Shown here piece after piece: positions 3,001-24,121 of a stretch of 64,000 nucleotides of DNA. The position numbers and the translations under genes were made by a program. The notes under the pieces were generated by a model. The model was not told where the DNA came from. It saw only the letters and a list, made by a program, of their open reading frames with translations, and made no database searches. Position 1 is the first letter of the stretch, and each line of letters opens with the position of its first letter. Origin of the DNA: Armatimonadota bacterium (GTDB lineage Bacteria; Armatimonadota; Fimbriimonadia; Fimbriimonadales; Fimbriimonadaceae); assembly GCA_018268395.1 (NCBI GenBank), contig JAFDWQ010000005.1, positions 1-64,000 on the forward strand, given 5' to 3'.

Positions 3001-3056
3001 CTCTCGTTGGAAACTGCGATGGGGTCGTACTGGTAGGCCTTGCGCTCTTCGCTCAT
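1..3056 (-). CDS. hsdR: Type I restriction endonuclease subunit R (HsdR), 3' end cut off by window edge
   Basis: Motor and nuclease subunit of a type I restriction enzyme; it translocates DNA using ATP and cleaves unmodified DNA together with HsdM and HsdS. The frame is open from the ATG at 3056 to the window edge (1018 codons, close to the ~1000-1050 aa usual for the family), so only the extreme C terminus is missing. The N-terminal PD-(D/E)XK nuclease shows VELKRR with Glu at residue 171. The helicase has a Walker A motif TGSGKT near residues 329-334 and a DECH box at 428-431. The ATG overlaps the hsdS stop by 4 bp, so it is last in an hsdM-mrr-hsdS-hsdR operon. The motifs checked are all in one frame. 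Confidence 0.95.
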   Translation of the reverse strand, partial: MSEERKAYQYDPIAVSNESTVVAEYVPESVVREATYQSEDALERALIHQLEKQAYDHLKITSEEQLIANLRTQLETLNGITFSDAEWKQFYETKIAGKNDGIVEKTVRIQEEPVQLLTRDDGTTKNIKLIDRQNIHNNRLQVINQYEVEGARANRYDVTVLVNGLPMVHVELKRRGVDIREAFNQIDRYQRDSFWAGSGLFEYVQLFVISNGTLTKYYSNTTRRQHIQDAAGAKKVKKTSNSFEFTSWWADSKNKPIQDLGAFTKTFFAKHTILNILTRYCVLTADRMLLVMRPYQIAATERILQKIEISTNYKKLGSVEAGGYVWHTTGSGKTLTSFKTAQLASHTPSVDKVLFVVDRKDLDYQTMREYDRFEKGAANSNTSTSVLKKQLESKDAHIIITTIQKLATFIAANKGHEIFGGHIVIIFDECHRSQFGDMHTAITRAFKRYNLFGFTGTPIFTANMSSGGNPQLKTTEQAFGEKLHTYTIVDAISDKNVLPFRIDYVNTMKVGNVLDKKVSAIDTEKALLASERVRQVAEYILEHFDQKTKRSSGYIHSLIANVSDVAGGRNKIDALRVPSRVKGFNALFATASIEAAKRYYAQFGELQKGSTPDRRIKIGLIFTFAANEAVEDGALEEEGFETGALDSSSRDFLDSVIKDYNTMFGSSYDTSDEKFQNYYKDLSLRMKNREIDLVIVVNMFLTGFDATTLNTLFVDKGLRAHGLIQAYSRTNRILNSVKAYGNIVSFRDLEQETNDALALFGNKDAKGIAILKPYGEYYGEYEAKVQELVTTFPLGKQIVGEQAKKDFVSLFGAILRLQNILTSFDDFEGHEILSERHGQDYRSVYLDIYADFRQGRDSDKEEINDDIVFEIELIKQVEINVDYILMLVAKFREAKGDGNDVEIRAQIIRAVDSSPTLRNKKDLVEDFVDSLSATGEVDNEWRSFIAKRRDAELEQIITDENLRPDETRAYVDTAFRDGTLRTSGTAITRVLPPTTRFSAGGGHGEKKQRVLVVGQFEI

Positions 3057-4252
3057 CCTGCCTCCTGGAATGTGAGTAAGCGGTTACGGTAGTGCTCGTA
3101 CTGCTGGCGTCGGGCATTCAGCTCGGCTGGAAGGCCACTGGCGAGGTCGTTCACGAGGGCATCAAACTTGTCTAGAAGGGAAACGATCTGCTCTTGCTCT
3201 GATAACGGCGGGATGGGAATCGAAACAGATGCCATAGCGTTCGCCATCAGCTTAGGGTTCCCCATTCCTGCGCTCACGTATGCCTTCGCATGTCTCAAGA
3301 GCTGGTAATACATAAACTTCGTTGAAAGCACGCTTCGATCCTTTACCTTTAGTAAACCGCACACATTGGTGATACTAAACCGCTCATTGTCGTGAAAAAA
3401 CACGGAACCCGCGTTCGCGCCATCCGTAGTCCAAGTGACAGATTCGAAGTCATATGCGTAGGTATCGATATAGCCGAATACCCCACTGTTTTGGGTTTGT
3501 GAAGAGTAAACAGGGTAGTCTCCTGCATGATCTCGAAGGAAATCCTTCGAAATTACTCGGCCTCGTGAAATATCACAGACTTCACCCATTCTTGCCCAAC
3601 TGACTGCCCCTCTCTCCCCATCGGTGAACGTCAGCAGTCGGTCACGATAAAAAGTGTACTGAACCCATCGGGCGTCCAGCTCTGCCTCCAGCTCTGCCTC
3701 CAGTTCTGCCTCCAGCCTACTAAAGGTATCAAGAACCCTTACAATCTCTCGCTGTACCTCGATAGGTGGAACGGGAATGCGGAGTTTTGATAGGCTCTCT
3801 CCTGAAAGACGTCGCACCTTCGTTCCTGTGATGCTGCGCTTCTTTTGGTTCTGGAATTGGTCTGATTGGAAGAAATACGACACATACTTTGGCTCAAGCG
3901 AGTGGTGGTAGATACAGGCATCACCGCTTACGGCAACCTCGGTAGTGCCAATCCAAGCAACTGCTTTGCCAACCGCCTCATCATCTTCGCTGGTAGTCGC
4001 AATGATGAGGTCGCCGGGCTCCGCTCGGCGAAGTTTCTTGGCAAACTCTGGCTTTACAAAAGAAATTGTGGTCTCCGCCGATGTGCCATAGTGGGTGTGA
4101 ACTTGCCCGTAATGAATAGCAGGAAAGCCACTATCGGTCAGGTCACTCTTTTGCAGGCCGTTTCCGCGAATGAACTGACCGACCTCACCTAAAGTCTTGA
4201 ACTCGACCCCGATTGGGCAAAGTTCTTTAACTAGATCGTCGATTTTGCTCAT
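3053..4252 (-). CDS. hsdS: Type I restriction-modification specificity subunit (HsdS)
   Basis: DNA-recognition subunit that directs both HsdM methylation and HsdR cleavage. The 399 aa show the usual pseudo-symmetric layout: target recognition domain 1 (about residues 15-170), a central conserved helix, target recognition domain 2, and a C-terminal conserved helix. The two helices carry matching motifs, QYTFYRDRLLTF near residue 200 and QYEHYRNRLLTF near the C terminus. Just before the central motif lie three 4-residue repeats (about residues 180-191) encoded by 12-bp tandem repeats, comparable to the TAEL repeats of EcoR124-type HsdS. The gene overlaps the preceding mrr-like gene and the following hsdR by 4 bp each, implying translational coupling. 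Confidence 0.95.
   Translation of the reverse strand: MSKIDDLVKELCPIGVEFKTLGEVGQFIRGNGLQKSDLTDSGFPAIHYGQVHTHYGTSAETTISFVKPEFAKKLRRAEPGDLIIATTSEDDEAVGKAVAWIGTTEVAVSGDACIYHHSLEPKYVSYFFQSDQFQNQKKRSITGTKVRRLSGESLSKLRIPVPPIEVQREIVRVLDTFSRLEAELEAELEAELDARWVQYTFYRDRLLTFTDGERGAVSWARMGEVCDISRGRVISKDFLRDHAGDYPVYSSQTQNSGVFGYIDTYAYDFESVTWTTDGANAGSVFFHDNERFSITNVCGLLKVKDRSVLSTKFMYYQLLRHAKAYVSAGMGNPKLMANAMASVSIPIPPLSEQEQIVSLLDKFDALVNDLASGLPAELNARRQQYEHYRNRLLTFQEAG
3675..3715 (-). repeat. 12-bp tandem repeat array inside hsdS (three copies plus a partial)
   Basis: Three 12-bp units (ctctgcctccag) lie at 3680-3691, 3692-3703 and 3704-3715 (the last has one mismatch), with a 5-bp partial unit at 3675-3679. 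Each unit is a multiple of three and adds four residues of the EAEL type to the HsdS central helix. In EcoR124I and its variant, a change in number of such 4-residue repeats changes the spacing between the two halves of the recognised DNA site. Confidence 0.9.
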
Positions 4253-5172
4253 ACGAAGAAATCCTCATCAATTTCTACGATGTCCACGGACTGCTTCACC
4301 TGGACTCCGACTCGGTACTTAATCATCAGGTTGAGAAGGAGTGCGCCATCTATTAGGATGATGCGAGCTCGAGCATCGCGTTGTGCGTACTCTTTCGCGC
4401 CAGGACTGAATCGCCCTGTGGTGATCATGACTCCCTGTTCTGCTTTCCCGCTCAGGGCTCCAACAAAGGCTTGAACTTCGGGCCGATTGACGGCGTTATC
4501 TCTGCCGTACCGCTTCGCTTGGATGTACACCTTACTGAGTCCGAGGACATCCTGGTCAATGACACCATCAATCCCGCCATCGTTGACGAGGTCAGTCGCC
4601 GCCGCTTGACCTCCGGTTCCGCCGTAACCCATAGCAACGAGAAGCTGGACGACCGCATGCTCGAAGAAGGCGGGCTCACTGGCCGTGAGTCGCTCGAATA
4701 GCTGGGCCTTTACATCCCCTTGGATGAGTTCGATGCCCTGCGAGATCATCTCGACCGGATCAAGTGATTCGGCTTCAGGAGATTCGCCTTTCGTACCAGT
4801 GGCATCAGGCTTGGGCTGCTTTGATTTTGGGGCCCACCATTCGTCTCCATCCTTGGCGACGGCACGAAGATCGGACTCGGTTATGCAGTCCGGGTGCTTG
4901 GCAAGGAACTCCCGACCGAAGGGAGTGATCACATATGTGCCTCGCTTCGGACGTTCCAACGCTCCGACGCGAGACAGGTAAGACGCAGCCCACCCTATCC
5001 GGTTGGCAACCACTTGCTGGCCCGATGCAAGGAGCTCCGAACGCTGATCTGGAGTAAGTCGTTCGGCGTCGGAGACGGCAGAGATCAAATCTCGCAGGAC
5101 TCGAGTGCCTCCATCTGACTGGACGCGCAGAACTGGAACCATAAACTCATCCCAAGTCGGAATCCCGCTCAT
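4249..5172 (-). CDS. Mrr-type restriction endonuclease embedded in the hsd operon
   Basis: Protein of 307 aa with two parts: an N-terminal winged-helix-like region (residues 1-95, the Mrr_N type) and a C-terminal Mrr-family PD-(D/E)XK nuclease (about residues 155-295). Catalytic landmarks are GGIDG (Asp202) and YIQAKRY (Gln218, Lys220), followed by the family pattern ending in GVMITTGRFS. Mrr enzymes are type IV nucleases that cut modified DNA. The start overlaps the hsdM stop and its own stop overlaps the hsdS start by 4 bp each, so it is translated with the type I system. It could act as an independent modification-dependent nuclease or as an accessory to the Hsd complex; the sequence does not say which. 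Confidence 0.9.
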   Translation of the reverse strand: MSGIPTWDEFMVPVLRVQSDGGTRVLRDLISAVSDAERLTPDQRSELLASGQQVVANRIGWAASYLSRVGALERPKRGTYVITPFGREFLAKHPDCITESDLRAVAKDGDEWWAPKSKQPKPDATGTKGESPEAESLDPVEMISQGIELIQGDVKAQLFERLTASEPAFFEHAVVQLLVAMGYGGTGGQAAATDLVNDGGIDGVIDQDVLGLSKVYIQAKRYGRDNAVNRPEVQAFVGALSGKAEQGVMITTGRFSPGAKEYAQRDARARIILIDGALLLNLMIKYRVGVQVKQSVDIVEIDEDFFV

Positions 5173-6740
5173 TTGTTGCTCCTTTCCAAATCAGCAACTA
5201 TGTTATCAATCTGCGACCGGATCACCGCCTGCCTCGCGACGATTCGGCTGATTTCGGTATTCAGGGCTGTGATATCGACCGCAACCGAGGTATCGAGTCT
5301 TTCGACATAGGACGTGACCGAGATAGTGTAGTTGTTCTCGGCAAGTTCTTCTTTCTTAACTAGCCTCGTGAAGTGATCCACATCCTCGCGGGCAGTAAAC
5401 ACATCGAGGATCTTCTGTTGATGGTCAGACGTCAGCCTGTTCTTGTTGCCGACGCGAGTGAACTCCGCCGAAGCATCGATGAAGAGTACGGAGTTGTCCT
5501 TCTTCGACTTCTTGAGCACGATGATGCAGGTCGCGATTGTCGTGCCGAAGAAGAGGTCTGGCGGAAGTTGTATGACTGTGTCGATGTAGTTATTGTCGAT
5601 GAGGTATTTGCGAATCTTCTGCTCTGCACCGCTACGATAGAGCACTCCAGGAAACTCAACGATGGCTGCCGTGCCGTTAACGGCAAGCCAACTGAGCATA
5701 TGCATCGTGAACGCAAGGTCGGCGGCTGCCTTTGGGGCTAACACTCCGGCCGGTGCGAACCGAGGGTCATTGATCAGGAGAGGGTTGCTGTCGCCGTCCC
5801 ACTTGATGGAGTACGGCGGATTAGAGACGATCGCCTCGAACGGCTCGTCGTCCCAATGTTGCGGGTCTACAAGGGTGTCACCATGCGCAACATCGAACTT
5901 CTCATAGTTCACGTCATGCAAGAACATGTTGATGCGGGCGAGGTTGTAGGTGGTCAGGTTGATTTCCTGCCCGTAGAACCCTTGGCGGACGTTTTCTTTG
6001 CCCAGCACTTTGGCAAACTTCAGGAGAAGGGAGCCTGAGCCGCAAGCGGGGTCATACACCTTATTCACCTGGGTCTTGCCGACTACAGTAATGCGGGCAA
6101 GAAGTTCAGAGACCTCCTGGGGCGTGTAGTACTCGCCGCCGGATTTGCCAGCTGAGGATGCGTACATTTGCATCAAGTACTCGTAAGCGTCGCCGAAGAC
6201 GTCGATGGAATTGTCCTCGTAGTTGCCGAGAGGCAGGTCTCCGATGGCGTCGAGGAGCTTTACCATCTTCTCGTTTCGCTTGGCAACGCTTTGCCCAAGC
6301 TTTTGGGAATTCACGTCGAGGTCGTCAAAGAGGCCCTTGAGGTCGCCTTCGCTGTCTGTGCCGACCGCCGAACCTTCGATGTTCTTGAAGACCCTTTGCA
6401 GAGTCTCATTAAGATTCTCGTCCTTAGGTGCTTGTTTACGGATATTCTGAAAGAGTTCGGAGGGGAGGATATAGAAGCCCTTTTCTGCTACAGTCTCCGT
6501 GCGCCCGAACTCGGCGTCCTTGTCGGAGAGCTTCGCGTAGTCGAAGTCCATTTCACCCGCTTCACGTTCGAGCTTATTGATGTAAGCAGTCAGGTTCTCG
6601 GAGATGAACCTATAGAAGAGCATGCCGAGGACATAGGACTTGAAGTCCCAGCCGTCGACGCTGCCTCGAAGATCGTTCGCGATCCGCCAGATGGTCTTGT
6701 GCAGCTCAGCGCGCTGCGCCTCGCTCGTGGTTGGGGCCAT
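5169..6740 (-). CDS. hsdM: Type I restriction-modification DNA methyltransferase subunit (HsdM)
   Basis: N6-adenine methyltransferase subunit of the type I system. The 523 aa contain an N-terminal helical HsdM_N region and an N6_Mtase core with motif I DPACGSGS at residues 230-237 and motif IV NPPY at 307-310, both intact. It is first in the operon: the ATG at 6740 is preceded by a good Shine-Dalgarno sequence (GGAGGG, 6748-6753 on the minus strand) and no upstream same-strand gene is close. The stop overlaps the mrr-like gene by 4 bp. Confidence 0.96.
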   Translation of the reverse strand: MAPTTSEAQRAELHKTIWRIANDLRGSVDGWDFKSYVLGMLFYRFISENLTAYINKLEREAGEMDFDYAKLSDKDAEFGRTETVAEKGFYILPSELFQNIRKQAPKDENLNETLQRVFKNIEGSAVGTDSEGDLKGLFDDLDVNSQKLGQSVAKRNEKMVKLLDAIGDLPLGNYEDNSIDVFGDAYEYLMQMYASSAGKSGGEYYTPQEVSELLARITVVGKTQVNKVYDPACGSGSLLLKFAKVLGKENVRQGFYGQEINLTTYNLARINMFLHDVNYEKFDVAHGDTLVDPQHWDDEPFEAIVSNPPYSIKWDGDSNPLLINDPRFAPAGVLAPKAAADLAFTMHMLSWLAVNGTAAIVEFPGVLYRSGAEQKIRKYLIDNNYIDTVIQLPPDLFFGTTIATCIIVLKKSKKDNSVLFIDASAEFTRVGNKNRLTSDHQQKILDVFTAREDVDHFTRLVKKEELAENNYTISVTSYVERLDTSVAVDITALNTEISRIVARQAVIRSQIDNIVADLERSNK

Positions 6741-7301: not shown

Positions 7302-8177
7302 CTAGGCTGGCTCTTCTTCGAAGCTCACGCCGTGCAAGTAGTCGGCCGCCTTTTGTGCCTTGGAGGCAGCCACGACCACGGCCCTGGTGTCCGACTTGAG
7401 CGCGGTCAGCCATGACTCGATGTAGCTCGCCGAGTTCTCGACGAGCGAGTTGTCGAGCCCGATGCTCGCGCAACAGAAGGCAGAAGTCAACTCCGCTACC
7501 AGCTCTTCGCGACCGTAACAGGCGGATCCGAACTGGACTTCTCCCGTCACTGAAGGACGGTTGAGGCGCTTCTCGTGGCCCGTGGCATGACCTAGCTCGT
7601 GAAGAAGGGTCGCATAGTAGGCGTCGGGGCTGTCGAACGTAGAAAGTGGCGGAATCTGGACGACGTCTTCGGCGGGTCTGTACCAGGCTGAAGCTCCTTG
7701 TTCTCGGATCGTTGGCGGGTCTTGGACGGCCTTCACGAACGCTTCAGCCCGATCGATCCGAGCATTGAGGTGTTCCGAGCTTGTCAGGGACAGGCTGGGG
7801 AGTTCCAAGCCGTCGCACTGCTCCGCGTTGAAGACGTGGTACTTCTTAAGGATCGGGATTCGCCATTTGAGGACTTCACCGGTCTCTTGGTCGGTTCCCT
7901 CGACGTTCCAAGGCTTCCAAAACACGACCGGCGTGGATCGCTCGCCTCGGCGCACTGTACCGCCGAGCTCCTTGGCCTGGTTGAAGGTGAGCCACCGATG
8001 GTCTCTGAATGGACTGAGCGCCAGAAGGAAGACGTTGACGCCCCGGTACGGCTTCTTGCTCACCGCGTTGGCAGGGAGCGAGTCACCACCGGCCCACGGC
8101 TTTCGCCAGGGTACGACGCCCCGCATCAGTGCGTTCGTGATCTGGGCCGTGACCTGCTCGTAGACTTTGTCGTTCAC
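7302..8177 (-). CDS. ArdC-like antirestriction protein (ssDNA-binding domain plus zincin metallopeptidase)
   Basis: Protein of 291 aa with the two-domain ArdC architecture. The N-terminal ssDNA-binding domain (about residues 1-125) shows the VPWRKPW, YRGVNVF and TFNQAKELGG signatures. The C-terminal zincin-like metallopeptidase has HELGH at residues 193-197, with a downstream Glu-containing helix (REELVAELTSAF) supplying the likely third ligand. ArdC proteins are carried by plasmids and conjugative elements and protect incoming single-stranded DNA from host restriction. Its position beside a complete type I restriction operon fits a mobile element with both restriction and antirestriction functions. 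The ATG start gives the full N-terminal domain. Confidence 0.9.
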   Translation of the reverse strand: MNDKVYEQVTAQITNALMRGVVPWRKPWAGGDSLPANAVSKKPYRGVNVFLLALSPFRDHRWLTFNQAKELGGTVRRGERSTPVVFWKPWNVEGTDQETGEVLKWRIPILKKYHVFNAEQCDGLELPSLSLTSSEHLNARIDRAEAFVKAVQDPPTIREQGASAWYRPAEDVVQIPPLSTFDSPDAYYATLLHELGHATGHEKRLNRPSVTGEVQFGSACYGREELVAELTSAFCCASIGLDNSLVENSASYIESWLTALKSDTRAVVVAASKAQKAADYLHGVSFEEEPA

Positions 8178-8437
8178 GAAGCCACCCCTCTCTCACTGGG
8201 GAGGCTGCGATGGATTTGAATGTGCATGTTGACCTCGATTGCCCAGAGCCCCGTGGCCCTGGGCTGAGGCAATCCTACGAGCGTCTTGAGTCGAGTTCAA
8301 GAACTGCGTTGTCTGTGCAAGTCTGCCGCTCCTAATTGCACGGATGTGGCAGAAGTTGGGTCATCTGGTCGATCGCCGTTTGATGTTAGGGACACGCCCG
8401 GCACTAAGTGCCGCCAGCGGGTCGAGAGGACTCGACC

Positions 8438-9040
8438 ATGGCCCTTACCAACCAGAAAACGGCGCCCGCAAGAGTGGCGCACCTCGACACTCCTCCTCGG
8501 CGCTGTACGCGCTATGAGGACGAACCCAGTTACTACGAAGCCGGGGCACTTTGGCTCTACGGCAACGTCCGACTGCTCCACGCCAAGCTCTCGTGCATCG
8601 AGACCGCCTTCGGCCCTGGCCCTTGGGACAGGTCGGCTCTCGACGAAATCGAGCAGGCGGCCGAACGCCGGATCCTCAACGCCGAGATCCTCGTCTGCGG
8701 CGTCCACAACGAGGCGCACCAGCGTGCGGCCGTGGTTCCGCTCCGATGGGGGGCGCCGAGAGTCATCGTCTTTTCCGGCGGCATCCGCGTCCACCTTGGC
8801 GACGACCTGAAGAACGAGCCGTTCCGCGCCGCAAGGCTCTGGCGTTACCAATGGGACTCGCGCACCGACCTCGCCGTTTCCCGTCGGGCGCCCCACAAGC
8901 TCCCGACGTTCTCCCGGTTCAACCCTACGGTCGACCGCCTGATCCGCTCGCTTGCGGACGGCGATTGGCCCGGGCTCTCAAGCCCCGTCGATCCATTGAC
9001 GCGCTCGTCTGCGCCGTCAAGTTCCCAAGCCCTGCGGTGA
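8438..9040 (+). CDS. DprA/Smf-like Rossmann-fold protein
   Basis: Protein of 200 aa from the ATG at 8438, preceded by AGAGGA (8425-8430); an upstream in-frame start at 8408 is possible. The core resembles the DprA/LOG-like Rossmann fold: a Gly-Asn motif at the first strand (LYGN), ILVCGVHNEAHQRA in place of the DprA VSGLARGID..AH region, then a strand ending in IVFSGG. It is much shorter than true DprA (~300-370 aa) and lacks a recognisable C-terminal winged helix. Such short variants on mobile elements may bind ssDNA or nucleotides. The family assignment rests on pattern and not on a search. Confidence 0.6.
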   Translation: MALTNQKTAPARVAHLDTPPRRCTRYEDEPSYYEAGALWLYGNVRLLHAKLSCIETAFGPGPWDRSALDEIEQAAERRILNAEILVCGVHNEAHQRAAVVPLRWGAPRVIVFSGGIRVHLGDDLKNEPFRAARLWRYQWDSRTDLAVSRRAPHKLPTFSRFNPTVDRLIRSLADGDWPGLSSPVDPLTRSSAPSSSQALR

Positions 9041-9056
9041 CGCAGGGCTCTCTTTG
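9028..9056 (+). terminator. Terminator overlapping the end of the DprA-like gene
   Basis: A perfect 9-bp stem (AGCCCTGCG/CGCAGGGCT, 9028-9036 and 9041-9049) with a GTGA loop is followed by ctctttg. The stem uses the final codons and stop of the DprA-like gene and faces the convergent XRE gene. Confidence 0.75.
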
Positions 9057-9059
9057 TAT

Positions 9060-9317
9060 TCAGTCTAGAGCCGTGACGCGCTCTGCTAGGAGCAGGAACG
9101 ACTCGCGCATGTCCCGACCCAATGCTCTGACATAGTCCACGAGGTCGACGAACTCGACCCCTTTCTCCCCGTTCTCAACCTTGTGCACGTAGTTGTTGGG
9201 CCTGGCCATAGAAAGCGAGAGTTCTCGCTTGGTCAACCCCGCCTCTTTCCTCCATTCGGCCAAGGTCATTCGGAGCACGTCGTGCTCCCTGCGTTCGACT
9301 GGCTTAGGACGTTGCAC
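9060..9317 (-). CDS. Small XRE-family HTH transcriptional regulator
   Basis: An 85-aa protein consisting mainly of one Cro/C1-type helix-turn-helix (about residues 18-72; LAEWRKEAGLTKRELS followed by a VHKVENGE recognition region). It is divergent from the FkbM methyltransferase gene, and a perfect 12-bp-arm palindrome (9336-9362) lies in the 51-bp divergent gap. That layout is typical of an autoregulating repressor that also controls the opposite gene. It probably governs the adjacent methyltransferase and possibly the peptide genes beyond it. Confidence 0.85.
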   Translation of the reverse strand: MQRPKPVERREHDVLRMTLAEWRKEAGLTKRELSLSMARPNNYVHKVENGEKGVEFVDLVDYVRALGRDMRESFLLLAERVTALD

Positions 9318-9335
9318 ATGGTTACCGTCCCTTTC

Positions 9336-9362
9336 ACAATCATACTAATCTAGTATGATTGT
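9336..9362. promoter_or_regulatory. Palindromic operator between XRE regulator and FkbM methyltransferase
   Basis: A perfect inverted repeat with 12-bp arms (ACAATCATACTA and TAGTATGATTGT) around a 3-bp centre (ATC). It sits in the divergent intergenic gap, 18 bp from the XRE start and 6 bp from the GTG proposed for the methyltransferase. The arms contain TATGAT-like -10 elements on both strands, so binding would block both promoters. Confidence 0.8.
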
Positions 9363-9368
9363 AGGACT

Positions 9369-10133
9369 GTGGGCAGGTCGTGGAAGACGAGAGTGGCCAT
9401 CCCATTCCCGGCGGTCGCCGGTGCGATCCGCGGGCAGCTGTGGAGCCTAGGCACAGGTGGAAACTACTTCACCGGGCGCTTTGAAGCGGCCAAAGCGAAG
9501 GCGGTTCAGGTGATCGTGCTGCCTGGCGAGACCGTTTGGGACGTGGGTGCGCACCGGGGTTATTTCACGCTCGTGCTTGCAGAGGCGGTGGGCCCTTCGG
9601 GGCGTGTATACGCCTTTGAACCGGATCCTGACAACCTGGCGCTCTTACGACGCCATGTGCTGTGGAACGGACTGCGGCAAGTCAAGGTCATGCCTTGTGC
9701 ACTCGCGAACAGTGAAGGCAGGCTTCCGTTTCAAAGAGGCTCATCGTCGCTTGCCGGAAAACTAGACTTGAGCGGCGACCTTTTTGTCGACGTGCGGTGT
9801 CCCAGCTCGCTGGTCACGTCTGGTGAGTGTGCCCGACCAAGCTTCGTGAAGATCGACGCTGAGGGCGCGGAGTCCGATATCCTTGAGGGCATGTCGCCGT
9901 ACCTGGACGATCCTCGACTGGCGCTCGTGGTCTCTACCGACAGTTCGCAGTTGCACGAAGCTTGTCGCCGGAAACTTGAGTCTGCAGGATTGACAGTGAT
10001 TGACAGCGGAAAACTCCGTGCACGGGATCCCTGGAGGCAGTTTGGAGATGTTGAGCTATTCGCGTTTGGCCGGGATCGTTTGCCTCTGCCAATCGTCATG
10101 AAGCATATCGAAGCAATCGGCGGGGATCCGTAG
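9369..10133 (+). CDS. FkbM-family SAM-dependent methyltransferase
   Basis: Class I SAM-dependent methyltransferase of the FkbM type, 254 aa. The SAM-binding motif I is VWDVGAHRGYFT (about residues 56-67), followed by GRVYAFEPDPDN (acidic residue after strand 2) and the FkbM-typical FVKIDAEGAESDILEGM. Members methylate hydroxyls in polyketides, glycans and other small molecules; the substrate here is unknown. The GTG at 9369 is only 6 bp after the operator palindrome, so the transcript would be nearly leaderless, or translation starts at a later codon. It is followed, after a 90-bp AT-rich gap, by two tandem small-peptide genes on the same strand. Confidence 0.88.
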   Translation: MGRSWKTRVAIPFPAVAGAIRGQLWSLGTGGNYFTGRFEAAKAKAVQVIVLPGETVWDVGAHRGYFTLVLAEAVGPSGRVYAFEPDPDNLALLRRHVLWNGLRQVKVMPCALANSEGRLPFQRGSSSLAGKLDLSGDLFVDVRCPSSLVTSGECARPSFVKIDAEGAESDILEGMSPYLDDPRLALVVSTDSSQLHEACRRKLESAGLTVIDSGKLRARDPWRQFGDVELFAFGRDRLPLPIVMKHIEAIGGDP

Positions 10134-10223
10134 CTAGACTGTTCGCAAAATACAGTACTTAACGAGAGTTGCTTGATTGATCCTGAAGGGCTATTGTGGA
10201 AATACTAGTCACAGTCGGAAAAA

Positions 10224-10430
10224 ATGGAGAAACCAGTTTTCTTTGAACTAGACGGCAAGTTTGCTGCTTTCGTACCAAAATCAGACGGAGGAGCCTCAGT
10301 AATTAAAGACTCTGGAGCACCTAATATCGCAGACTTCATGCAAACTGGCACTGTAATCGGTTTTGATGATTTGCCAGAGGATTTTCAAGCTTCAGTTCAA
10401 GAGGTGTTAGCCAAGTCCAAAGCTGCCTGA
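10224..10430 (+). CDS. 68-aa peptide, first copy of a tandem paralogous pair
   Basis: Small acidic protein of 68 aa with no signal peptide, cysteine or membrane segment. It is about two-thirds identical (45 of 68 positions by eye) to the protein at 10475-10681. The N-terminal 45 residues (FFELDGKFAA, DSGAPN) and the C-terminal SKAA end are conserved, while residues 46-56 differ strongly. The DNA is clearly more AT-rich than the surroundings, with codons such as TTT, AAA and GTA unusual for this window, pointing to recent transfer. The start is preceded by a weak GGA. I do not recognise a family; a modified-peptide precursor, an antitoxin-like peptide or a small structural protein are possible. 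Confidence 0.75.
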   Translation: MEKPVFFELDGKFAAFVPKSDGGASVIKDSGAPNIADFMQTGTVIGFDDLPEDFQASVQEVLAKSKAA

Positions 10431-10444
10431 CACCCATTGCTACT

Positions 10445-10457
10445 ATACTTGTAGTAT
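10445..10457. promoter_or_regulatory. Operator-like inverted repeat upstream of second peptide gene
   Basis: The inverted repeat ATACT-TGT-AGTAT lies 17 bp before the ATG at 10475 and overlaps a TATACT -10-like element (10444-10449). Its half-sites match the central part of the XRE/FkbM palindrome at 9336-9362 (ATACT...AGTAT). A related ATACTAGT occurs at 10202-10209, before the first peptide gene. Confidence 0.5.
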
Positions 10458-10474
10458 CAGTAATAGGAGAAGTA

Positions 10475-10681
10475 ATGGACAAACCAACTTTCTTTGAACT
10501 AGACGGCAAGTTTGCCGCTTTAGTACCACGACCAGATGGAGGAGCTACAGTAGTCAAAGACTCTGGAGCACCTAATTTCGCAGACTTCATGGAAACCGGC
10601 TCTGTAATCAAACCAGAAGCCGCTCCCGCTTCTATGCGAAGGTCTGTAGAAGGTGTTTTAGCTAGGTCTAAGGCCGCCTGA
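10475..10681 (+). CDS. 68-aa peptide, second copy of a tandem paralogous pair
   Basis: Paralogue of the 10224-10430 product with the same length and conserved ends. The divergent segment (residues 46-56) is KPEAAPASMRR-like here, against an acidic GFDDLPEDFQA-like segment in the first copy. The start is well defined by a strong Shine-Dalgarno sequence (AGGAGA, 10465-10470) four bases before the ATG, and the gene has its own promoter-like region with an inverted repeat. Conserved flanks around a variable stretch, in two adjacent copies, suggest duplication followed by diversification of a functional segment. The function is unknown. Confidence 0.8.
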   Translation: MDKPTFFELDGKFAALVPRPDGGATVVKDSGAPNFADFMETGSVIKPEAAPASMRRSVEGVLARSKAA

Positions 10682-10754: not shown

Positions 10755-12305
10755 CTAGTGATGAGCCCGTACGTACCTGAGCAGTTCCCACATCACCTTG
10801 CAGTCAACTAGGTTGTACTCCTCGATCTCAGCCATGAGCGGACGACCGTCGTCAAGCGCAGACTCGTTTGGGGAGTTTCCCCGGGCTGCCGCTTCCTTGT
10901 AGCACCACCATGCGGCGGCCATCGCAGCGATGCCGTCGCCTACAGCGCTATCGCCCCAGACTGTGTCGATGGCACCGCCCTTCGAAAGCGCTCGAGCGAT
11001 CGGCTTGATGCTAAATCCGGACACCCCTGCGATGGTGACTGGCTGGGCTTTGAACACCTTGTCCATGAGGTCATACCAGGGGAGTGTGCTCCACGGCTCC
11101 TCGTTGCTACGCTCGGCTGCCTTGGCGACTTCTTGCGGCTCGTGGCGATACCAGTGGTAGAGCCTCGGCTGGGCTCCGGGTGCAAGGCGCATTCGAACCT
11201 TGCCCATGTGTTCCAGCCAAGCTCGGATGATCTTAGCCTCAGCTTCGACAGACTCATTTTCTGCAGTCCAAACTTCGAATCGGAACTCACCCTCTTCCTC
11301 GTGTCCGCACCCGATCATAAAGATCATCTCCTTCCCGTTCGGGAGGGGTAGTTTTGAGAAGTCGTCGTTCATGCTGTTGAAGGTTTCGAAGTCGACGAAA
11401 AACTCGAAGTGGGCCGGCTCGAACCACTCTTCTCGGTTCGCCTCGAACCGTTCCGGAAGCATGAGGACAGCTGCTTCGCTTGGCTGTGAGAGTTGATCCA
11501 TGATCGACTTTTTCGCCTCGTGCCACGGTGAGTCTTCGTTGTTCTTGGAGTTCGGTCGAAGTCTTGCGTCGCTCGGCGGACTGACTTGCCACGAGCGGCC
11601 GTGCTCTTCAAGTTCGATGAGCCAGTCGATGCCCCGCTCGATCTGCTCCAAGACCCTGGGATCATTCGGTTTCGCCCATCCGAGTCTTGAAAAGCATCCA
11701 AGCCTCTTTCCTGCAGACCCGGAGAGACTTCGTCCCAAGAGGAACGCCGGAGCTGGTTCGCGCTGGAGCATCTCGGCCAGGGCGTGCTCATAGATTGAGA
11801 TCTGCACCTTGTCCCACTTGTGACTTGCTGCGAGGTCGCCATTCTTGTTGAGATCTAGCCCCTTGTACTTGATGTCGAGAACATAGTAGTGCCCAGCATC
11901 AAGATCACCGAGTGAGCCAGGAACGACGGACTCCAAAACGTCGCCACGAACGATTAGGTCTGGGACTCCGAACAGTCCATGGGCCCTGTCCCGCACAAGT
12001 CCCTGCCAGATAGCCGGCTGCCCGGCGGAGACAGCCGCGAGGGTCGCCTCATACGCTGAATCCTCATTGGCCGCCGCCCCTTGGATTGAGGTGAAAGCGA
12101 TTCGCTCCTGGAGGAGGTCGAAGACCCGCGATTCGAACTCCCGTCCCTTCGCGCGTGTGAATACTCCAAGATCCGCTTGGGGAACGTACCCAGGCAGATC
12201 GGTGTCCTTGACGAATCCCGCTTCCTCGCCGTACCTTTCCAGCCAGTCCAGCAACGGGTCTTCCAGAACCCAGTTTCGAAGTTCAGAGGCGGCAATCATA
12301 TGCAC
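10755..12305 (-). CDS. RecB-family nuclease with RNase H-like domain (TM0106-like)
   Basis: Protein of 516 aa with two nuclease-type domains. The N-terminal PD-(D/E)XK (RecB/Cas4-like) domain shows GVPDLIVRGD (113-122) and VLDIKYK (142-148). The C-terminal RNase H-like/DEDD exonuclease-like domain starts at FFVDFETF (about 303-309) and ends with a VDCKVMWELLRY helix carrying a late acidic residue. This combination matches the TM0106 group of predicted RecB-family nucleases. Typical members have cysteines for an Fe-S cluster; I see no clear four-cysteine set here. The gene is flanked by the peptide pair and the UPF0489 gene but transcribed in the opposite direction to both. Confidence 0.8.
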   Translation of the reverse strand: MHMIAASELRNWVLEDPLLDWLERYGEEAGFVKDTDLPGYVPQADLGVFTRAKGREFESRVFDLLQERIAFTSIQGAAANEDSAYEATLAAVSAGQPAIWQGLVRDRAHGLFGVPDLIVRGDVLESVVPGSLGDLDAGHYYVLDIKYKGLDLNKNGDLAASHKWDKVQISIYEHALAEMLQREPAPAFLLGRSLSGSAGKRLGCFSRLGWAKPNDPRVLEQIERGIDWLIELEEHGRSWQVSPPSDARLRPNSKNNEDSPWHEAKKSIMDQLSQPSEAAVLMLPERFEANREEWFEPAHFEFFVDFETFNSMNDDFSKLPLPNGKEMIFMIGCGHEEEGEFRFEVWTAENESVEAEAKIIRAWLEHMGKVRMRLAPGAQPRLYHWYRHEPQEVAKAAERSNEEPWSTLPWYDLMDKVFKAQPVTIAGVSGFSIKPIARALSKGGAIDTVWGDSAVGDGIAAMAAAWWCYKEAAARGNSPNESALDDGRPLMAEIEEYNLVDCKVMWELLRYVRAHH

Positions 12306-12506: not shown

Positions 12507-13421
12507 ATGGTCTCTTTACCGAGATTTGCTATGATGGGGCTGATTTCAAACGGCCTTATGAATCCCCAGCTCCTCAAGCAGCTCAATCAGCTCGATGGCC
12601 TAAAGCATGGGCGCCTCGGCGATCAGGAGGTCTACTTGCATGAAGATCACCGCTGGCTCTTGCCGATTGTCTTCGACGCCCAAGAGAGGTCACTTCTTCC
12701 CAGTCCATGCACGCTTGTGATGTTCGATGCGCACCACGATGGGCTCGTGCCAAACAAGCTGGATAAGGTACGTTACCTGTCAGCCCAGGGTGTTACAGCA
12801 CATGGTCTCATCGAACTGTGTGCAAACGATCTCGCAAAGAACGATGATGATTGGGTGATCGCTGGGATGGAACTTGGCATATTTGACCATGCCGTTGTCT
12901 TCGGTGTCGAGCATCATGTGCCGATGGACAACTGCATTCATCATATCGATGCGGCCGGTAAGAGACACTTGATTTGGGCGTCTTGTTATCTGCCAGGAAC
13001 CGGCCTTCTGTATCAGGGCGAACTGAGCGATCATGCCAAGAGCGAGCACCTGAAGCAGCTCTGGGATATTCTCGACTGGGAGTCAATCAGCGGGAAGTTC
13101 CAGTTCAAGGATGATGCTCCGACTCTGCTTCTTGACTTCGACCTCGACTGTTTCTCGGCCACATACCGAAGCGCTCGCTTCACTTGGCCCGACGCTGTCT
13201 ATGACCAAGAGCTACACCGAGTCTCTGACTACAGACCTACCGAGGGGTGGACTGGGAGGCTCTTCGTCGACAGGATTCGAGATCGGGCCGGGATCATAAC
13301 CATCTGTCGAGAGGCTAGATGTTGTGGAGGCGAAAACATTTGCAATGAAAACCTTGCACAGGTGCTGAAACACTTTTTCGACCAGGAGTTACAGCTCTTC
13401 GGGAAGCCTGCCAACAAGTGA
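12507..13421 (+). CDS. UPF0489-family arginase-fold protein (peptide arginase-like)
   Basis: Protein of up to 304 aa (in-frame ATGs at 12507 and 12531 are both possible starts). Two metal-binding signatures of the ureohydrolase/arginase fold are present: MFDAHHDG (D-x-H-x-D, about residues 73-78) and LLDFDLDCFS (D-x-D-x-D, about 209-216). These with GVEHH and HHIDAAGK fit UPF0489. Some UPF0489 members (OspR type) are peptide arginases that turn arginine into ornithine in ribosomal peptides; others are uncharacterised. No radical SAM enzyme, peptidase or transporter typical of a peptide pathway is next to it, so the substrate is open. Confidence 0.8.
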   Translation: MVSLPRFAMMGLISNGLMNPQLLKQLNQLDGLKHGRLGDQEVYLHEDHRWLLPIVFDAQERSLLPSPCTLVMFDAHHDGLVPNKLDKVRYLSAQGVTAHGLIELCANDLAKNDDDWVIAGMELGIFDHAVVFGVEHHVPMDNCIHHIDAAGKRHLIWASCYLPGTGLLYQGELSDHAKSEHLKQLWDILDWESISGKFQFKDDAPTLLLDFDLDCFSATYRSARFTWPDAVYDQELHRVSDYRPTEGWTGRLFVDRIRDRAGIITICREARCCGGENICNENLAQVLKHFFDQELQLFGKPANK

Positions 13422-13609: not shown

Positions 13610-15229
13610 TCAGTGATCAAAGATATCCGGCTCTGGTAGGGCCGGAAACACCTCGTTGGACAGCTCCGCACAGGTTCTAACGTGGTGTAGTAATGCCCAC
13701 CAATCAGAATTCGATCCCGCAGAATCCCCGACTTCATGCCTATGAGAGCGGGGATTTGCTGGTTCTAGTGACAGTAGTTTGTCGAGGCGCGGATCGATCT
13801 GAATTTCGAGCGATCCCAGAGTGAGAGTGTACGAGGCTCCAAAGGTGCGTGCGACCGCCTTCTTCTGCTCGAGTGAATTTGACGAGACACGGGCGTACGC
13901 ATCGCGAGTGAAGCAGAGGAGGTTTCTGGCGCTTTCGTACTGGTTCCTGGTTCTGACTTCTTGTGTCTCTTGTTCCCAGTGGACTCGGTTCAACTCTGCT
14001 TGTAGCCGACTCTTTGTTTCTCGGAACTCATCGGGGGAATAATCGCCTTCCAGATAGCGATCACTGAGGCGGTCGAGTTTGGCCCGGATGCCTCGAGTCA
14101 ATTGGTGTCGCTCTTGGGAGATCGCCTCATCGGCGATTCGAAGTTCGCCATGTTCGCGCTCGAGTACTCCGAGGGCCCAATCGACGAATTCGGGCGCGAG
14201 CCGCACCCTTTCGAGGTCTTGCAAGAGTACTGCTTCGAAGTCCGATTCTGTCACAGCGCGCTTCGGACAGCCATTGCGTCCGCACCGATAGTATGTGTAC
14301 AGGCGTGAGTTGCCCGTCTTTGGATAGTGCTTCCATTTTCGTTCTCCCGTCACGGCGGCTCCACAAACGCCGCATTGGATCAGGCCCGTGAAGGCAAACT
14401 CGTGAGACTTAGGTTTCGGCCTGATCTCACGCCCGAGGATGATCTGCGCTTGCTTGAACTGCTCTTTGGTGACCATGGGTTGGTGCGTGCCCTCCATGAG
14501 CTCGCCTTCGAATTGAAAGTAGCCGCAGTAGAATGGATCACTAAACATTTGATAGAGGCCAGACGGCAGGAGGGGTCGGTCTCCTTTCTTGAGCGACCTT
14601 CTTGTCCGGTAGCCCATTGCATTGATGCGCTCCAAGATCCTAGGCCCGCTGTAGGACCCGGTAAGCAACATGTCCCATGCTCTCTTGAGTAGATGGAATC
14701 GGGCCGGGTCGGGCACGTGGTCTTTGGTGATGGGGTCGACCTGATAACCTGCCTTGGGTCGATACGGGTACATCCCGCGCCTCACTTTTCCCTCCAAACC
14801 ACGTCGGACACCGAGCCGAAGATCGATGATCTCTTGGTTGGCAGCACCCTGTTCGACGGAGAGGAGAAGGACGTTGTCGGAGGACAGATACTCTCGTAGC
14901 GGCGTGAGGATGCTCTTCAGCACGCCCGTTTGCAAGAGCCACGAAACGTGTCCGCCATCCACTGGATTACGGGAGATCCTGTTAAGGTGCCAGGCTAGGA
15001 TGCCGTCGGCCTCTCCGCGGCGAATCTTGGCCAGCATCTCGTTGAAGACGGGGCGCTCGCCTGGAGACTTGGCCGAGTGCTTCTCGATCAGTTCACAGGC
15101 GACCGTCAAGCCACGCTTCGCGGCCAAGTTTCGGAGCTCGGCGAGTTGGTCGTCGATGGACTGGACTTGGCGGTCTGAGTTGTCCGTGCTCTTCCGGGCA
15201 TAGAGGATGTACCGCGTAGTTGCAGGCAT
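13610..15229 (-). CDS. Large serine recombinase (resolvase/integrase family)
   Basis: Site-specific recombinase of about 539 aa from the ATG at 15229 (the frame is open to 15256). The N-terminal catalytic domain begins ILYARKSTDNSDRQVQSIDDQ, with the catalytic Ser in ARKS, and includes the LNRISRNPVDGG helix. The recombinase domain (about residues 160-270) is followed by a zinc ribbon (CGVCGAAV and CGRNGCPKR) and a coiled-coil-rich C terminus. Such enzymes integrate or excise phages and integrative elements. It lies in the middle of the island, not at its edge, so it may belong to a nested element or be a second mobility module. A small ORF overlaps its 5' end. Confidence 0.93.
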   Translation of the reverse strand: MPATTRYILYARKSTDNSDRQVQSIDDQLAELRNLAAKRGLTVACELIEKHSAKSPGERPVFNEMLAKIRRGEADGILAWHLNRISRNPVDGGHVSWLLQTGVLKSILTPLREYLSSDNVLLLSVEQGAANQEIIDLRLGVRRGLEGKVRRGMYPYRPKAGYQVDPITKDHVPDPARFHLLKRAWDMLLTGSYSGPRILERINAMGYRTRRSLKKGDRPLLPSGLYQMFSDPFYCGYFQFEGELMEGTHQPMVTKEQFKQAQIILGREIRPKPKSHEFAFTGLIQCGVCGAAVTGERKWKHYPKTGNSRLYTYYRCGRNGCPKRAVTESDFEAVLLQDLERVRLAPEFVDWALGVLEREHGELRIADEAISQERHQLTRGIRAKLDRLSDRYLEGDYSPDEFRETKSRLQAELNRVHWEQETQEVRTRNQYESARNLLCFTRDAYARVSSNSLEQKKAVARTFGASYTLTLGSLEIQIDPRLDKLLSLEPANPRSHRHEVGDSAGSNSDWWALLHHVRTCAELSNEVFPALPEPDIFDH

Positions 15230-15356
15230 AGAACATGTGTAGGTAACTGGTGGCAAGATAGTTGGCTTCGTCCAAGCTCAACTCTATCGAAAAGACGTCG
15301 CGGTACAAGTCGCGAAAGGACTCAACCTCCGCAGAATTTGGCAGGGGAAGCCGCAT
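15093..15356 (-). CDS. Small helical protein overlapping the 5' end of the serine recombinase gene
   Basis: An 87-aa ORF in another frame. Its N-terminal part (EVESFRDLYRDVFSIELSLDEA..LATSYL) has the pattern of small helical proteins often encoded just upstream of serine recombinases on mobile elements, with a conserved acidic helix followed by LS-DEA. It overlaps the recombinase gene by about 137 bp, and the segment after residue ~45 is arginine-rich and looks like the shadow of the recombinase frame. The real product may be this ORF or a version ended by programmed events. The resemblance is judged by pattern only. Confidence 0.45.
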   Translation of the reverse strand: MRLPLPNSAEVESFRDLYRDVFSIELSLDEANYLATSYLHMFYACNYAVHPLCPEEHGQLRPPSPVHRRPTRRAPKLGREAWLDGRL

Positions 15357-18276: not shown

Positions 18277-19638
18277 ATGGTTATCAGACTATTTTTCGAA
18301 GCCATTGGATTTGCCTTCCACATGCTTTTCGACTTCATTGAAGGGCTCGGGCGAATGTTCTCCGGCGAAGATACGAGCGGGCTGGGCGTCGACTTGGAGA
18401 CTGGCCGTCGTTTTGGCTTCACTTGGAAGGATCTCCTGCGGCATTGCTACATCCTGGGAAGAACCGGTTCTGGCAAGACATCGTTGATCTTGCAGATGCT
18501 CGAAGCGGACGTTCGAGCGGCCCACTCCGTCGTTGTCGTGGACTTGCGCGGAGACCTCGTCTCCGGCGTCTTGGCAATGTGCGAGAGGCTCAAGGTCGGG
18601 CCTGGTCGAATCACGCTGATCGACCTTCGCGAGGAATCCGGTGGGCACGGGTTCGACCCCCTTTCCGGGGCCGGAGCGCCGTACGTGCACGCGCTCCACC
18701 TTCTTGAGGTCGTCTCGAACGAGCGCACGAATTGGGGGGTTCGGATCGAGGAGACGATGAGGTGCGCCCACATGCTCTTGTCCGCGGCAAAGAAGCCGCT
18801 GACGTGCATCGAGTCGGTGTTCTTTGACGAACAGTTCCGGAACGCTTGCATGGAGTGCGTCCAAGACGAAGCAGTCGTCGGGTTCTGGACGAGGTTCGCT
18901 CTCTTCAGCCCTGCCAAACAGCAGGAATATGCCCTTGCAGTCTTGAACAAGCTCACGCCGTTGCTGGCGGTGCCGCCCCTGAGAAACGTGCTCGGCAGCG
19001 ATACGCCGATCGATCTTGGAAAGGAGCTGGCAAACCGGGGCCGGATCATCTTGGTCTCCCTCGCCGTGGACGAACTGCAGAGGTCAGGACGAATGTTCGG
19101 AAACCTGGTCGTCTCGGCAATCGCGAGGGAGATGATGGCCCGGGTTCGCGTTCCAGAGAAAGACCGAAACCCCGTCCGGATGTACGTCGACGAGTTCGAG
19201 AACATGGCTTCGGAGGCGTTCGAGGGCCTGATCGCCGAGGGGCGGCGGTTCAAGTTGTCCCTGGTGCTCTCTCACCAGACGCTCGCACAACTGCCCTCAA
19301 AGCTCCGGTCGGTGGTTCGCAACAACGTCGGAGTCCAGATCCTGTTCCAGTGCGGGTTCGAGGACGCCCAGGCCCTCAACCGGGAGATCCAATCTGAAGA
19401 CGACGACGAAGACGGAGACCTGAGGGCGCTCGAAGTCGGGGAAGCGTACGTGGTGGCAGGCGACGGGACGGTGAAGTCTGTGCGGTTTGATGCCCCGAAC
19501 GAAAGTCAGAACGTTCCTGTCAGCGACCAGTACCGTGCCCTGGTCCTTGACCGGCGACGCCGTTCGTCCGCGCAGGAGACCGCGCCGGACTCTGACAGTC
19601 AGGGGTCGAGTCAAGTCGACCTGGACGAGTGGCTTTGA
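18277..19638 (+). CDS. TraG/VirD4-type conjugative coupling ATPase
   Basis: Protein of 453 aa. The N terminus has a short hydrophobic/amphipathic segment (residues 1-25). A P-loop ATPase follows, with Walker A GRTGSGKT at 61-68, VVVVDLRGD strand, Walker B MYVDEFE near 290, and a TraM-recognition-like LSHQTLAQLP sensor region. It is smaller than classical VirD4 and lacks the usual two-helix N-terminal anchor. Type IV coupling proteins deliver relaxosome-bound DNA to the secretion channel. The stop overlaps the Replic_Relax gene start by 10 bp, making a two-gene transfer/mobilization unit. No VirB4 or pilus genes are in the window. Confidence 0.88.
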   Translation: MVIRLFFEAIGFAFHMLFDFIEGLGRMFSGEDTSGLGVDLETGRRFGFTWKDLLRHCYILGRTGSGKTSLILQMLEADVRAAHSVVVVDLRGDLVSGVLAMCERLKVGPGRITLIDLREESGGHGFDPLSGAGAPYVHALHLLEVVSNERTNWGVRIEETMRCAHMLLSAAKKPLTCIESVFFDEQFRNACMECVQDEAVVGFWTRFALFSPAKQQEYALAVLNKLTPLLAVPPLRNVLGSDTPIDLGKELANRGRIILVSLAVDELQRSGRMFGNLVVSAIAREMMARVRVPEKDRNPVRMYVDEFENMASEAFEGLIAEGRRFKLSLVLSHQTLAQLPSKLRSVVRNNVGVQILFQCGFEDAQALNREIQSEDDDEDGDLRALEVGEAYVVAGDGTVKSVRFDAPNESQNVPVSDQYRALVLDRRRRSSAQETAPDSDSQGSSQVDLDEWL

Positions 19639-20312
19639 AACTCACCGGACGCGACCTTCGGGTTCTGGGTGACGCGGCTCTGAGCCACGTCCTGAGCCGT
19701 GACCAACTGTTGAATCTGGGGTACTTCACGTCGGTGTCGCGGTGCAACCGCACGATGAGAAGGCTGCACGAGGCCGGTCTTGTCCGCGTGCTTAAGACCC
19801 CTTTCTTCATGCAGAACCTCTATTCAGTGCGGACTGAAGCCTCGGACCTACTGGACGCGCGAATCGCCGCTCTCGTGAAGGGTCGGAGCTCTTCACCCCG
19901 GTTCCTGCAACACGCCCTCATGGTGACCGAAGCAAGGATCAGGCTTATCGAGAAAGGAGCGACGGGTTGGCGGTTCGAAGCCCAGGTGCGAGACTCGTTC
20001 ACCCTCCACGGAGCGAGGCACGACGTGAAGCCGGACGGCATGGTCTGGATCGATGGCAGACCCGTCCTCCTCGAGGTAGACCTAGGTCATGTCGCCTCCG
20101 GCAAGTTCAAGAGGAAGGTCGACACGTACAAGAGCTATGAGCGTTCCGGCGCGTTCGCCGGCGCCTACGGCTCCCCGAAGCTCTCCGTCGTCACTCTGAC
20201 GACGGGCCAGACAAGGAAGCGCCGCCTCGCCAACCTGGCTGGCCTAAGCGACATATTCGAGTTCTTCACGTTCGAGGAGTTCGGAATGCGCCTCATCGGA
20301 GCGTGGTCGTGA
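19629..20312 (+). CDS. Replication-relaxation family protein (Replic_Relax)
   Basis: Protein of 227 aa with a GTG start inside the end of the TraG-like gene. The N-terminal winged helix (LTGRDLRVLGDAALSHVLSRDQLLNLGYF, CNRTMRRLHEAGLVRVL) matches the Replic_Relax family found on plasmids and integrative elements. The second half (KPDGMVWIDGRPVLLEVDLGHVASGKFKRKVDTYKSY) looks like a nuclease-type fold with D..LEVD..K, as in other members. The role is in DNA relaxation and transfer with the coupling ATPase; the exact activity is not established. Confidence 0.82.
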   Translation: MALKLTGRDLRVLGDAALSHVLSRDQLLNLGYFTSVSRCNRTMRRLHEAGLVRVLKTPFFMQNLYSVRTEASDLLDARIAALVKGRSSSPRFLQHALMVTEARIRLIEKGATGWRFEAQVRDSFTLHGARHDVKPDGMVWIDGRPVLLEVDLGHVASGKFKRKVDTYKSYERSGAFAGAYGSPKLSVVTLTTGQTRKRRLANLAGLSDIFEFFTFEEFGMRLIGAWS

Positions 20313-20440: not shown

Positions 20441-21694
20441 GTGAACCGCCGCAAAGTCTCAGTCAAAGCGCTGGTCACCGACCAGACCCTGCCCCCTCGT
20501 CGATGGGCAGAGAGATTCGCCCGATACGAACGTGAGGTGCGAGTCGGAGAACTGGTCTCATGTCTCTACGTCTTGGAAGTCTTGGATAGCGACCTCGAGC
20601 ATGAACCACCTTACATCGTCTACGAGTACCTAGAAGGAGAGACGCTACTCGACCTGCTGGACAGGTCTGGAAGCCTCCCCTTCAAAGAGAACTCTAGAAT
20701 CATGGGGCAGGTGCTTGGAGGACTCGTCTCGGCCCATGAGAAGGGTGTAGTTCACCGAGACATCAGGCCCGAGAACATTGTGCTGGGAAAGGGTGGCTAC
20801 GTTAAGTTGACTGGTTTCGGCCTCGCCAGTTTCCCTGGTGAGAAGACGTTGTCGGTTCCGATTGAGAGTTGGGGGGCTTCGGGATACCTTTCGCCAGAGC
20901 AGTTCGAACGAGGCAGCAGTGACGCAGCGACCGACCTTTGGGCTGTCGGTGTCATAAGCTATCTCATCGAGACGGGCCACATGCCGTTCAACGGGGTTAC
21001 TGTCGAGGAGATTGCGGTAGCAACGTTGCACCAAGAGCCCGACTGGAGCTCAATCGAGAACGAAGATTTCGAGTTCTTCCTAAAGAGCATGTTGAGAAAG
21101 GATCCTGCGCAAAGGCCCCCGGACGCACTCGTCGCCGTCGCTCTGCTTTGGGAGGTTGACATGGACGACTATATCCGAGCAACGGAACCTTCACCCACTA
21201 GATCTTCACAGGACTCGGCTCAAACGACGCCCGATCGCCAGCCACTGACCCAAACGAGCCCGAACTCGTCAGGGATCGGCTGGATTGCGGCCGTGATGCT
21301 GTTAGCCGCCCTCACCTTGGTCTGGGTGGTGGCATCTGGCGCACTCCCGAGCGCGGGTAACAGGAGCCACGACAACCGCGTTGGTTCCGCCAAGGACGGT
21401 ATGAGTCTCGGAGGTGCCGCGGTCAAGTTGCCGACCAGTTCCGCTGTGACAAAGCCGACCAACGCTGCGAGGAACAAGCATTCCCAAGAAAAGGTTGCGA
21501 AACCAGCGAGTCGCGATCATTCAGGTACGCCACCTCGAAAACCGTCGCAAGCAACGTCGCATCCAAATGTTTCGAAAAGATCGAACACGGCCAACGAGCA
21601 GCCCATCCATCAGCCTAGCGGCGCTGTGACCGATGGGCCAAGGTCTTCTGCTAAGCGGGACTCCGAGACACCCCTACATCAAGGAGGCGGATAG
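20441..21694 (+). CDS. Membrane-anchored Ser/Thr protein kinase homologue, predicted pseudokinase
   Basis: At least 417 aa. The kinase-like domain has VSVKAL with the conserved Lys, an intact HRDIRPEN catalytic loop and a SPEQ activation-segment end, but the DFG Asp is replaced by Gly (TGFGLAS). Upstream of the GTG at 20441 the same frame continues the N-lobe from 20360 (RFGRYEVVREISRS..TYEAWDP) with a glycine-poor P-loop, yet no ATG/GTG/TTG occurs after the stop at 20318-20320. A rare start (ATT at 20333 or ATA at 20354, preceded by AAGAGG) is therefore possible. A single membrane helix (about residues 278-300) is followed by a Ser/Thr/Pro-rich tail. Loss of DFG Asp suggests a scaffold role. 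Confidence 0.85.
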   Translation: MNRRKVSVKALVTDQTLPPRRWAERFARYEREVRVGELVSCLYVLEVLDSDLEHEPPYIVYEYLEGETLLDLLDRSGSLPFKENSRIMGQVLGGLVSAHEKGVVHRDIRPENIVLGKGGYVKLTGFGLASFPGEKTLSVPIESWGASGYLSPEQFERGSSDAATDLWAVGVISYLIETGHMPFNGVTVEEIAVATLHQEPDWSSIENEDFEFFLKSMLRKDPAQRPPDALVAVALLWEVDMDDYIRATEPSPTRSSQDSAQTTPDRQPLTQTSPNSSGIGWIAAVMLLAALTLVWVVASGALPSAGNRSHDNRVGSAKDGMSLGGAAVKLPTSSAVTKPTNAARNKHSQEKVAKPASRDHSGTPPRKPSQATSHPNVSKRSNTANEQPIHQPSGAVTDGPRSSAKRDSETPLHQGGG

Positions 21695-24034: not shown

Positions 24035-24121
24035 TGGTGCCCAGGAAAGGACTCGAACCTTCACTCCCTTGCGAGAACTAGTACCTGAAACTAGCGCGTC
24101 TACCAATTCCGCCACCTGGGC
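24035..24121 (-). tRNA. tRNA-Leu (anticodon CAG)
   Basis: On the minus strand the 87-nt gene folds as a class II tRNA: 7-bp acceptor stem (GCCCAGG/CCTGGGC) with A discriminator and encoded CCA (24035-24037), D arm GGCGGAATTGGTAGACGC, anticodon stem CTAGT/ACTAG with a TTCAGGT loop giving anticodon CAG, long variable arm, and T loop GTTCGAGTC. The 3' end faces the integrase and is the likely attB site. The gene is intact. Confidence 0.97.

Follow-up and report, generated by a model that had tools for sequence, protein, structure and literature searches.

An XRE regulator, an FkbM methyltransferase and two orphan small proteins in the cargo slot of a tRNA-Leu-linked integrative element: probably not a single four-gene system

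Do four adjacent genes of an Armatimonadota bacterium, coding for a small regulator, a methyltransferase and two paralogous peptides, make up one recently acquired and regulated unit, as a first-pass annotation had proposed, or do they merely lie side by side in mobile DNA? We have addressed this question by a computational analysis of the 64,000-nucleotide stretch that carries them (referred to here as the window). All the features named in the proposal were found in place when the window sequence was checked:

9060-9317, minus strand: XRE-type HTH regulator, 85 aa, GTG start (PF13560 and phrog_1373)
9336-9362, no strand: perfect 27-bp palindrome (12+3+12), the probable, predicted operator
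9369-10133, plus strand: FkbM-family methyltransferase, 254 aa, GTG start (TIGR01444, PF05050 and alignment)
10224-10430, plus strand: orphan peptide 1, 68 aa (pLDDT of the best AlphaFold2 model, 89.1)
10475-10681, plus strand: orphan peptide 2, 68 aa, with an AGGAG Shine-Dalgarno sequence at about -8

The divergence of the XRE and FkbM genes around the palindrome is borne out by the open reading frames, the profile matches and the arms of the palindrome itself, which reads ACAATCATACTA-ATC-TAGTATGATTGT, the two 12-bp arms being 100% complementary. When the 51-bp intergenic gap was dinucleotide-shuffled 5000 times, an arm of 12 bp arose 0 times and the longest, of 11 bp, was seen once, and a search of the 3.72 Mb genome that allowed one mismatch found the core motif a single time. 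Twin -10 elements are plausible because each arm contains a -10-like TATGAT; a sigma-70 promoter scan found no full promoter and no consensus -35 at the palindrome. The regulator matches phrog_1373 with an E value of 1.9e-6, and its AlphaFold2 model (pLDDT 49) is too poor for use. It is like the small XRE autorepressors (HTH_31/HTH_3) of mobile elements, in which a short HTH protein is likewise combined with a palindrome in a divergent promoter, whereas its family score is borderline (27.3 bits for HTH_31, PF13560, at a Pfam cutoff of 27) and its operator is predicted from sequence alone. As the palindrome ends 6 bp from the FkbM start, control of this gene is suggested. The XRE protein would bind the palindrome, overlapping both divergent promoters, and would thereby repress its own gene and the FkbM gene, so that a low level of the repressor, such as might follow the transfer of the element, would turn FkbM on. 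Such control of itself and of FkbM through the palindrome is what the arrangement probably reflects, and the proposed regulation is plausible for these two genes, owing to the palindrome in their common divergent promoter.

The FkbM protein is complete, with 89.1 bits for TIGR01444 (NCBIfam cutoff 37.7) and 50.5 bits for PF05050 (Pfam cutoff 22.7), and alignment with its relatives shows intact catalytic motifs, namely the SAM-binding motif and K-D-x-E-G-x-E, the invariant columns of alignment A2 including G53, D58, G60, E84, P85, K161, D163, E165, G166 and E168. It has the same complete domain as the rest of the family, with the conserved stretches VWDVGAHxGYFTL, AFEPDPxN and FVKIDAEGAE; the best homologues found are nevertheless merely 40-43% identical, and none has a divergent XRE gene or the peptides. 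Among the near relatives, one (L006) adjoins a glycosyltransferase gene, and another (L041) lies downstream of a frame that reads as lipid-A-type acyltransferase-like. In Serratia symbiotica, phage resistance was found together with a disrupted FkbM gene and was ascribed to altered surface polysaccharide (PMC12505973). By analogy with this case and from what is known of the family, the enzyme most likely modifies an envelope sugar: it would O-methylate a sugar in a glycan of the envelope, a modification that could change how phages adsorb or how the surface is recognised and in this way be of benefit, although the substrate itself cannot be told from sequence alone.

The surroundings of these genes show that they lie within an integrative element, and the window, which begins at the first base of its contig, starts inside it. 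Its main features, from left to right, are as follows:

7302-8177, minus strand: ArdC-like anti-restriction protein (PF08401 and PF18818), element backbone, conserved in the sister elements
8408-9040, plus strand: conserved element gene (the 8408-gene), left bound of the cargo slot, 70-79% identity in four sisters
10755-12305, minus strand: cargo gene of 516 aa, convergent with the peptide genes, no Pfam family
12507-13421, plus strand: UPF0489-domain cargo gene (PF12640, 30 bits at a cutoff of 27)
13610-15256, minus strand: large serine recombinase (PF00239, PF07508 and PF13408), right bound of the cargo slot, homologous in the sisters
18277-20312, plus strand: VirD4/TraG-like ATPase and Replic_Relax protein, element backbone, homologous in the sisters
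22926-24014, plus strand: tyrosine integrase (PF00589)
24035-24121, minus strand: tRNA-Leu(cag), next to the integrase

The integrase gene is adjacent to the 3' end of the tRNA gene, and this arrangement is repeated in two sisters, where related integrases (75% and 73% identical) stand beside tRNA-Leu in a genome of the same genus (G003) and elsewhere in the present genome (C1). The four nearest sisters are those of G003, of C1:320500-359500 (L211, L212) and C5:340000-356000 (L243) in the present genome, and of another genome, G001, the C5 and G001 elements having been found by a search with the 8408-gene. They have in common a backbone of integrase, Replic_Relax, TraG, Mrr-like protein and serine recombinase and, further along, the 8408-gene and ArdC. 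The element is like other tRNA-linked integrative elements that carry VirD4/TraG and Replic_Relax in that it has ArdC, a TraG-like ATPase, a Replic_Relax protein and, next to tRNA-Leu, a tyrosine integrase; its additional serine recombinase sets it apart. Its left end lies outside the sequence, as the contig starts at base 1 of the window. No second copy of an att direct repeat was found in the genome, where the search returned just other tRNA-like sites at 2-3 mismatches.

Several observations concern the element at large. The 8408-gene, which has a terminator-like hairpin at its end (9028-9049), belongs to no Pfam family and is found in 107 of the 291 genomes of the phylum, as a form of about 200 aa in element-like loci and as a widespread longer form of about 300 aa; it is a useful marker for these elements. 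The left part of the window also carries an Mrr-like protein and the genes of a type I restriction-modification set: type I-like hsdM and hsdS lie at 3053-6740 on the minus strand, separated by a gene for an Mrr-type endonuclease (4249-5172). In other members of the family (L246, L228), a relative of this hsdM, 85-90% identical, adjoins relatives of the 8408-gene, which suggests that the restriction set moves with these elements too. A Ser/Thr protein kinase gene (20441-21694) lies near the integrase, and a weak kinase match was seen near the Replic_Relax gene of the C5 sister.

The cargo differs from sister to sister in the slot where the four genes are found, which the 8408-gene bounds on one side and the serine recombinase on the other. 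One sister has there a gene for a pentapeptide-repeat-like membrane protein and transposase-like remnants (names read from the sequences), and in G001 proteins of 1260 aa and 301 aa are encoded beside the 8408-gene relative (L244:4471-8253); the 1260-aa protein has no PADLOC match, and the pair are possibly unrecognised defence genes. FkbM or peptide genes occur in the slot of 0 of the four nearest sisters. The location of the genes in the variable slot of an element with four close sisters, of which two lie in the present genome, supports the view that they were acquired.

The sisters also bear on the standing of the regulator, which might be a backbone gene that accompanies the 8408-gene and controls functions of the element, the divergent FkbM gene being an accidental neighbour. 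The G003 slot does carry an XRE gene in the corresponding position, where it converges on the 8408-gene relative, with neither FkbM nor peptide genes present; a different gene diverges from it and no palindrome is found there. However, no relative of the present XRE gene occurs in the slots of the three other close sisters, and the close spacing of palindrome and FkbM start points to control of FkbM, so we regard a backbone role of the regulator as unlikely. Since an XRE gene is found there in only one of four sisters, and at a low identity of 24-29%, XRE may be a separate arrival.

The two peptide genes lie on the FkbM strand and are AT-rich, as had been described, with GC contents of 0.44 and 0.49 where the element averages 0.57; their products are 66% identical. 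The shared repeats that had been taken as a further sign of a common unit are real (141 nt, 87%), but they are the peptide paralogy itself. The frames might, in principle, not be genes at all. Their N-terminal 45 codons, with 17 nucleotide differences between the pair, have no excess of silent changes (P 0.31), and peptide 1 is without a clear ribosome site. Set against this, the sense frame conserves 45 identical residues where the same changes placed at random leave 36.3 +/- 2.5 (P 0.0008), the two frames are of equal length and free of stops, though 82% of random placements create one, peptide 2 has a ribosome site, and the best model shows a confident fold; that the frames are non-coding is, accordingly, extremely improbable. 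The excess of conservation is carried by the C-terminal end, codons 57-68, where the protein is conserved and the changes are mostly silent (P 0.005), and codons 46-56 are heavily diverged. This pattern supports a pair of real genes with an uneven history since duplication, the 5' part having possibly undergone conversion. Both products end in SKAA (10416-10427 and 10667-10678), which resembles a C-terminal protease tag.

In the best of five models, AlphaFold2 predicts for the pair a compact beta-beta-beta-alpha-beta-alpha domain, the four other models being at pLDDT 56-76. Foldseek with this model found no match under E 0.1 in PDB or BFVD, and in a further fold comparison the best Z was 4.0, which is uninformative. 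The statement that the peptides have no annotated family holds for Pfam, NCBIfam, PHROGs and PADLOC, the best PHROG match having an E value of 0.01 across 19 residues; Rfam gave no match above the gathering score. FkbM relatives are plentiful, in contrast to those of the peptides, of which none was found in 201 close genomes, in the 291 genomes of the phylum (save two matches at chance level), in PLSDB plasmids or in INPHARED phages (save one antisense chance match). The weak phylum matches (L003 and L004, E 0.004-0.006) lie inside longer frames, and that in a Microbacterium phage (E 0.06) is antisense to an annotated gene; all were rejected as chance. Scans of 85,000 GTDB genomes and of IMG/VR with short exact peptide patterns, which detect close relatives and would miss distant ones, returned none, and distant relatives could exist in metagenomes. 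We also considered, and set aside, a role as DNA-mimic or anti-restriction proteins: with net charges of about -5 (peptide 1) and about 0 (peptide 2), the pair is not consistently acidic.

Are the peptides, then, partners of the methyltransferase? The 90-nt gap between FkbM and peptide 1, with both genes in the same direction and no terminator between them, makes co-transcription quite possible. Base composition indicates another history for the peptides, as their GC3 of 0.35 stands apart from that of XRE (0.73), FkbM (0.65) and all other tabulated genes of the element (0.54-0.83). Nor does linkage recur among relatives. The neighbourhoods of 189 FkbM loci contain no convincing relative of the peptides or of the XRE gene, and the upstream divergent frames of 93 FkbM relatives (one per locus, the longest of 50-160 aa) code for no HTH protein by Pfam, which was used to repeat this test because the HTH profile built for the locus scan was of limited sensitivity. 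Together with the sister elements, where the combination is likewise missing, and with the XRE gene standing alone in a sister slot, these results leave the proposal of one four-gene unit unsupported.

One form of that proposal is a regulated unit, for instance one serving envelope modification or exclusion, where the methyltransferase would be guided or inhibited by the small proteins. The compact layout, the single divergent promoter and the lack of a terminator ahead of the peptides speak for it, but no second example of the set is present in the 291 phylum genomes, in the 151 relatives searched for FkbM or at the roughly 190 FkbM loci, and the peptides differ in base composition; such a unit is distinctly unlikely. 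Also very unlikely, in our estimation, is a new XRE-switched mobile cassette for peptide modification or envelope exclusion, with the 68-aa proteins as substrates or partner subunits of FkbM.

A more specific possibility is that the peptides are precursors of a RiPP, with FkbM as their N- or O-methyltransferase and XRE as pathway regulator. There is a precedent in the EreM/EreA proteusin pathway, where EreM, an FkbM enzyme encoded with a small peptide, N-methylates a RiPP precursor (PMC9259500); in the present locus the FkbM and peptide genes are similarly adjacent and in the same direction, and the conserved N-terminal 45 residues followed by a more variable middle (46-56) recall a leader and a core. 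Here, however, the peptides lack Cys and match no leader-family model in Pfam or NCBIfam, no other maturase, protease or exporter is recognised in the cargo slot with the same libraries, and FkbM relatives occur without such peptides, whose composition is unlike that of FkbM. The best model is folded over the entire chain and ends in a 16-residue helix, and the last 12 residues are under the clearest constraint at the protein level, unlike a free core. We therefore set this reading aside as very improbable, finding no positive evidence for it.

All together, our results slightly favor a reading in which an integrative element linked to tRNA-Leu carries the stretch as part of its variable cargo and not as a four-gene system, with XRE probably repressing itself and FkbM, FkbM most likely acting as an O-methyltransferase of envelope glycan, and the peptides travelling as a separate passenger. 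The four genes appear to fall into at least two histories, that of XRE, with or without FkbM, and that of the peptides. The peptide genes would be tandem copies derived from an AT-rich donor; they would encode small folded proteins and be transcribed by read-through from FkbM or from promoters of their own. An orphan passenger is the best description of them, and the present evidence does not couple their function to FkbM. Except for them, the locus is fairly ordinary. Were FkbM linked to the peptides after all, this would be a rare case of the enzyme family acting on a ribosomal peptide. From a broader point of view, this work describes, in a little-studied phylum, a family of tRNA-Leu-linked elements with a cargo slot that exchanges regulators, surface-modifying enzymes and orphan small proteins, and it illustrates that close proximity within such a slot is no ground for taking genes as one system.
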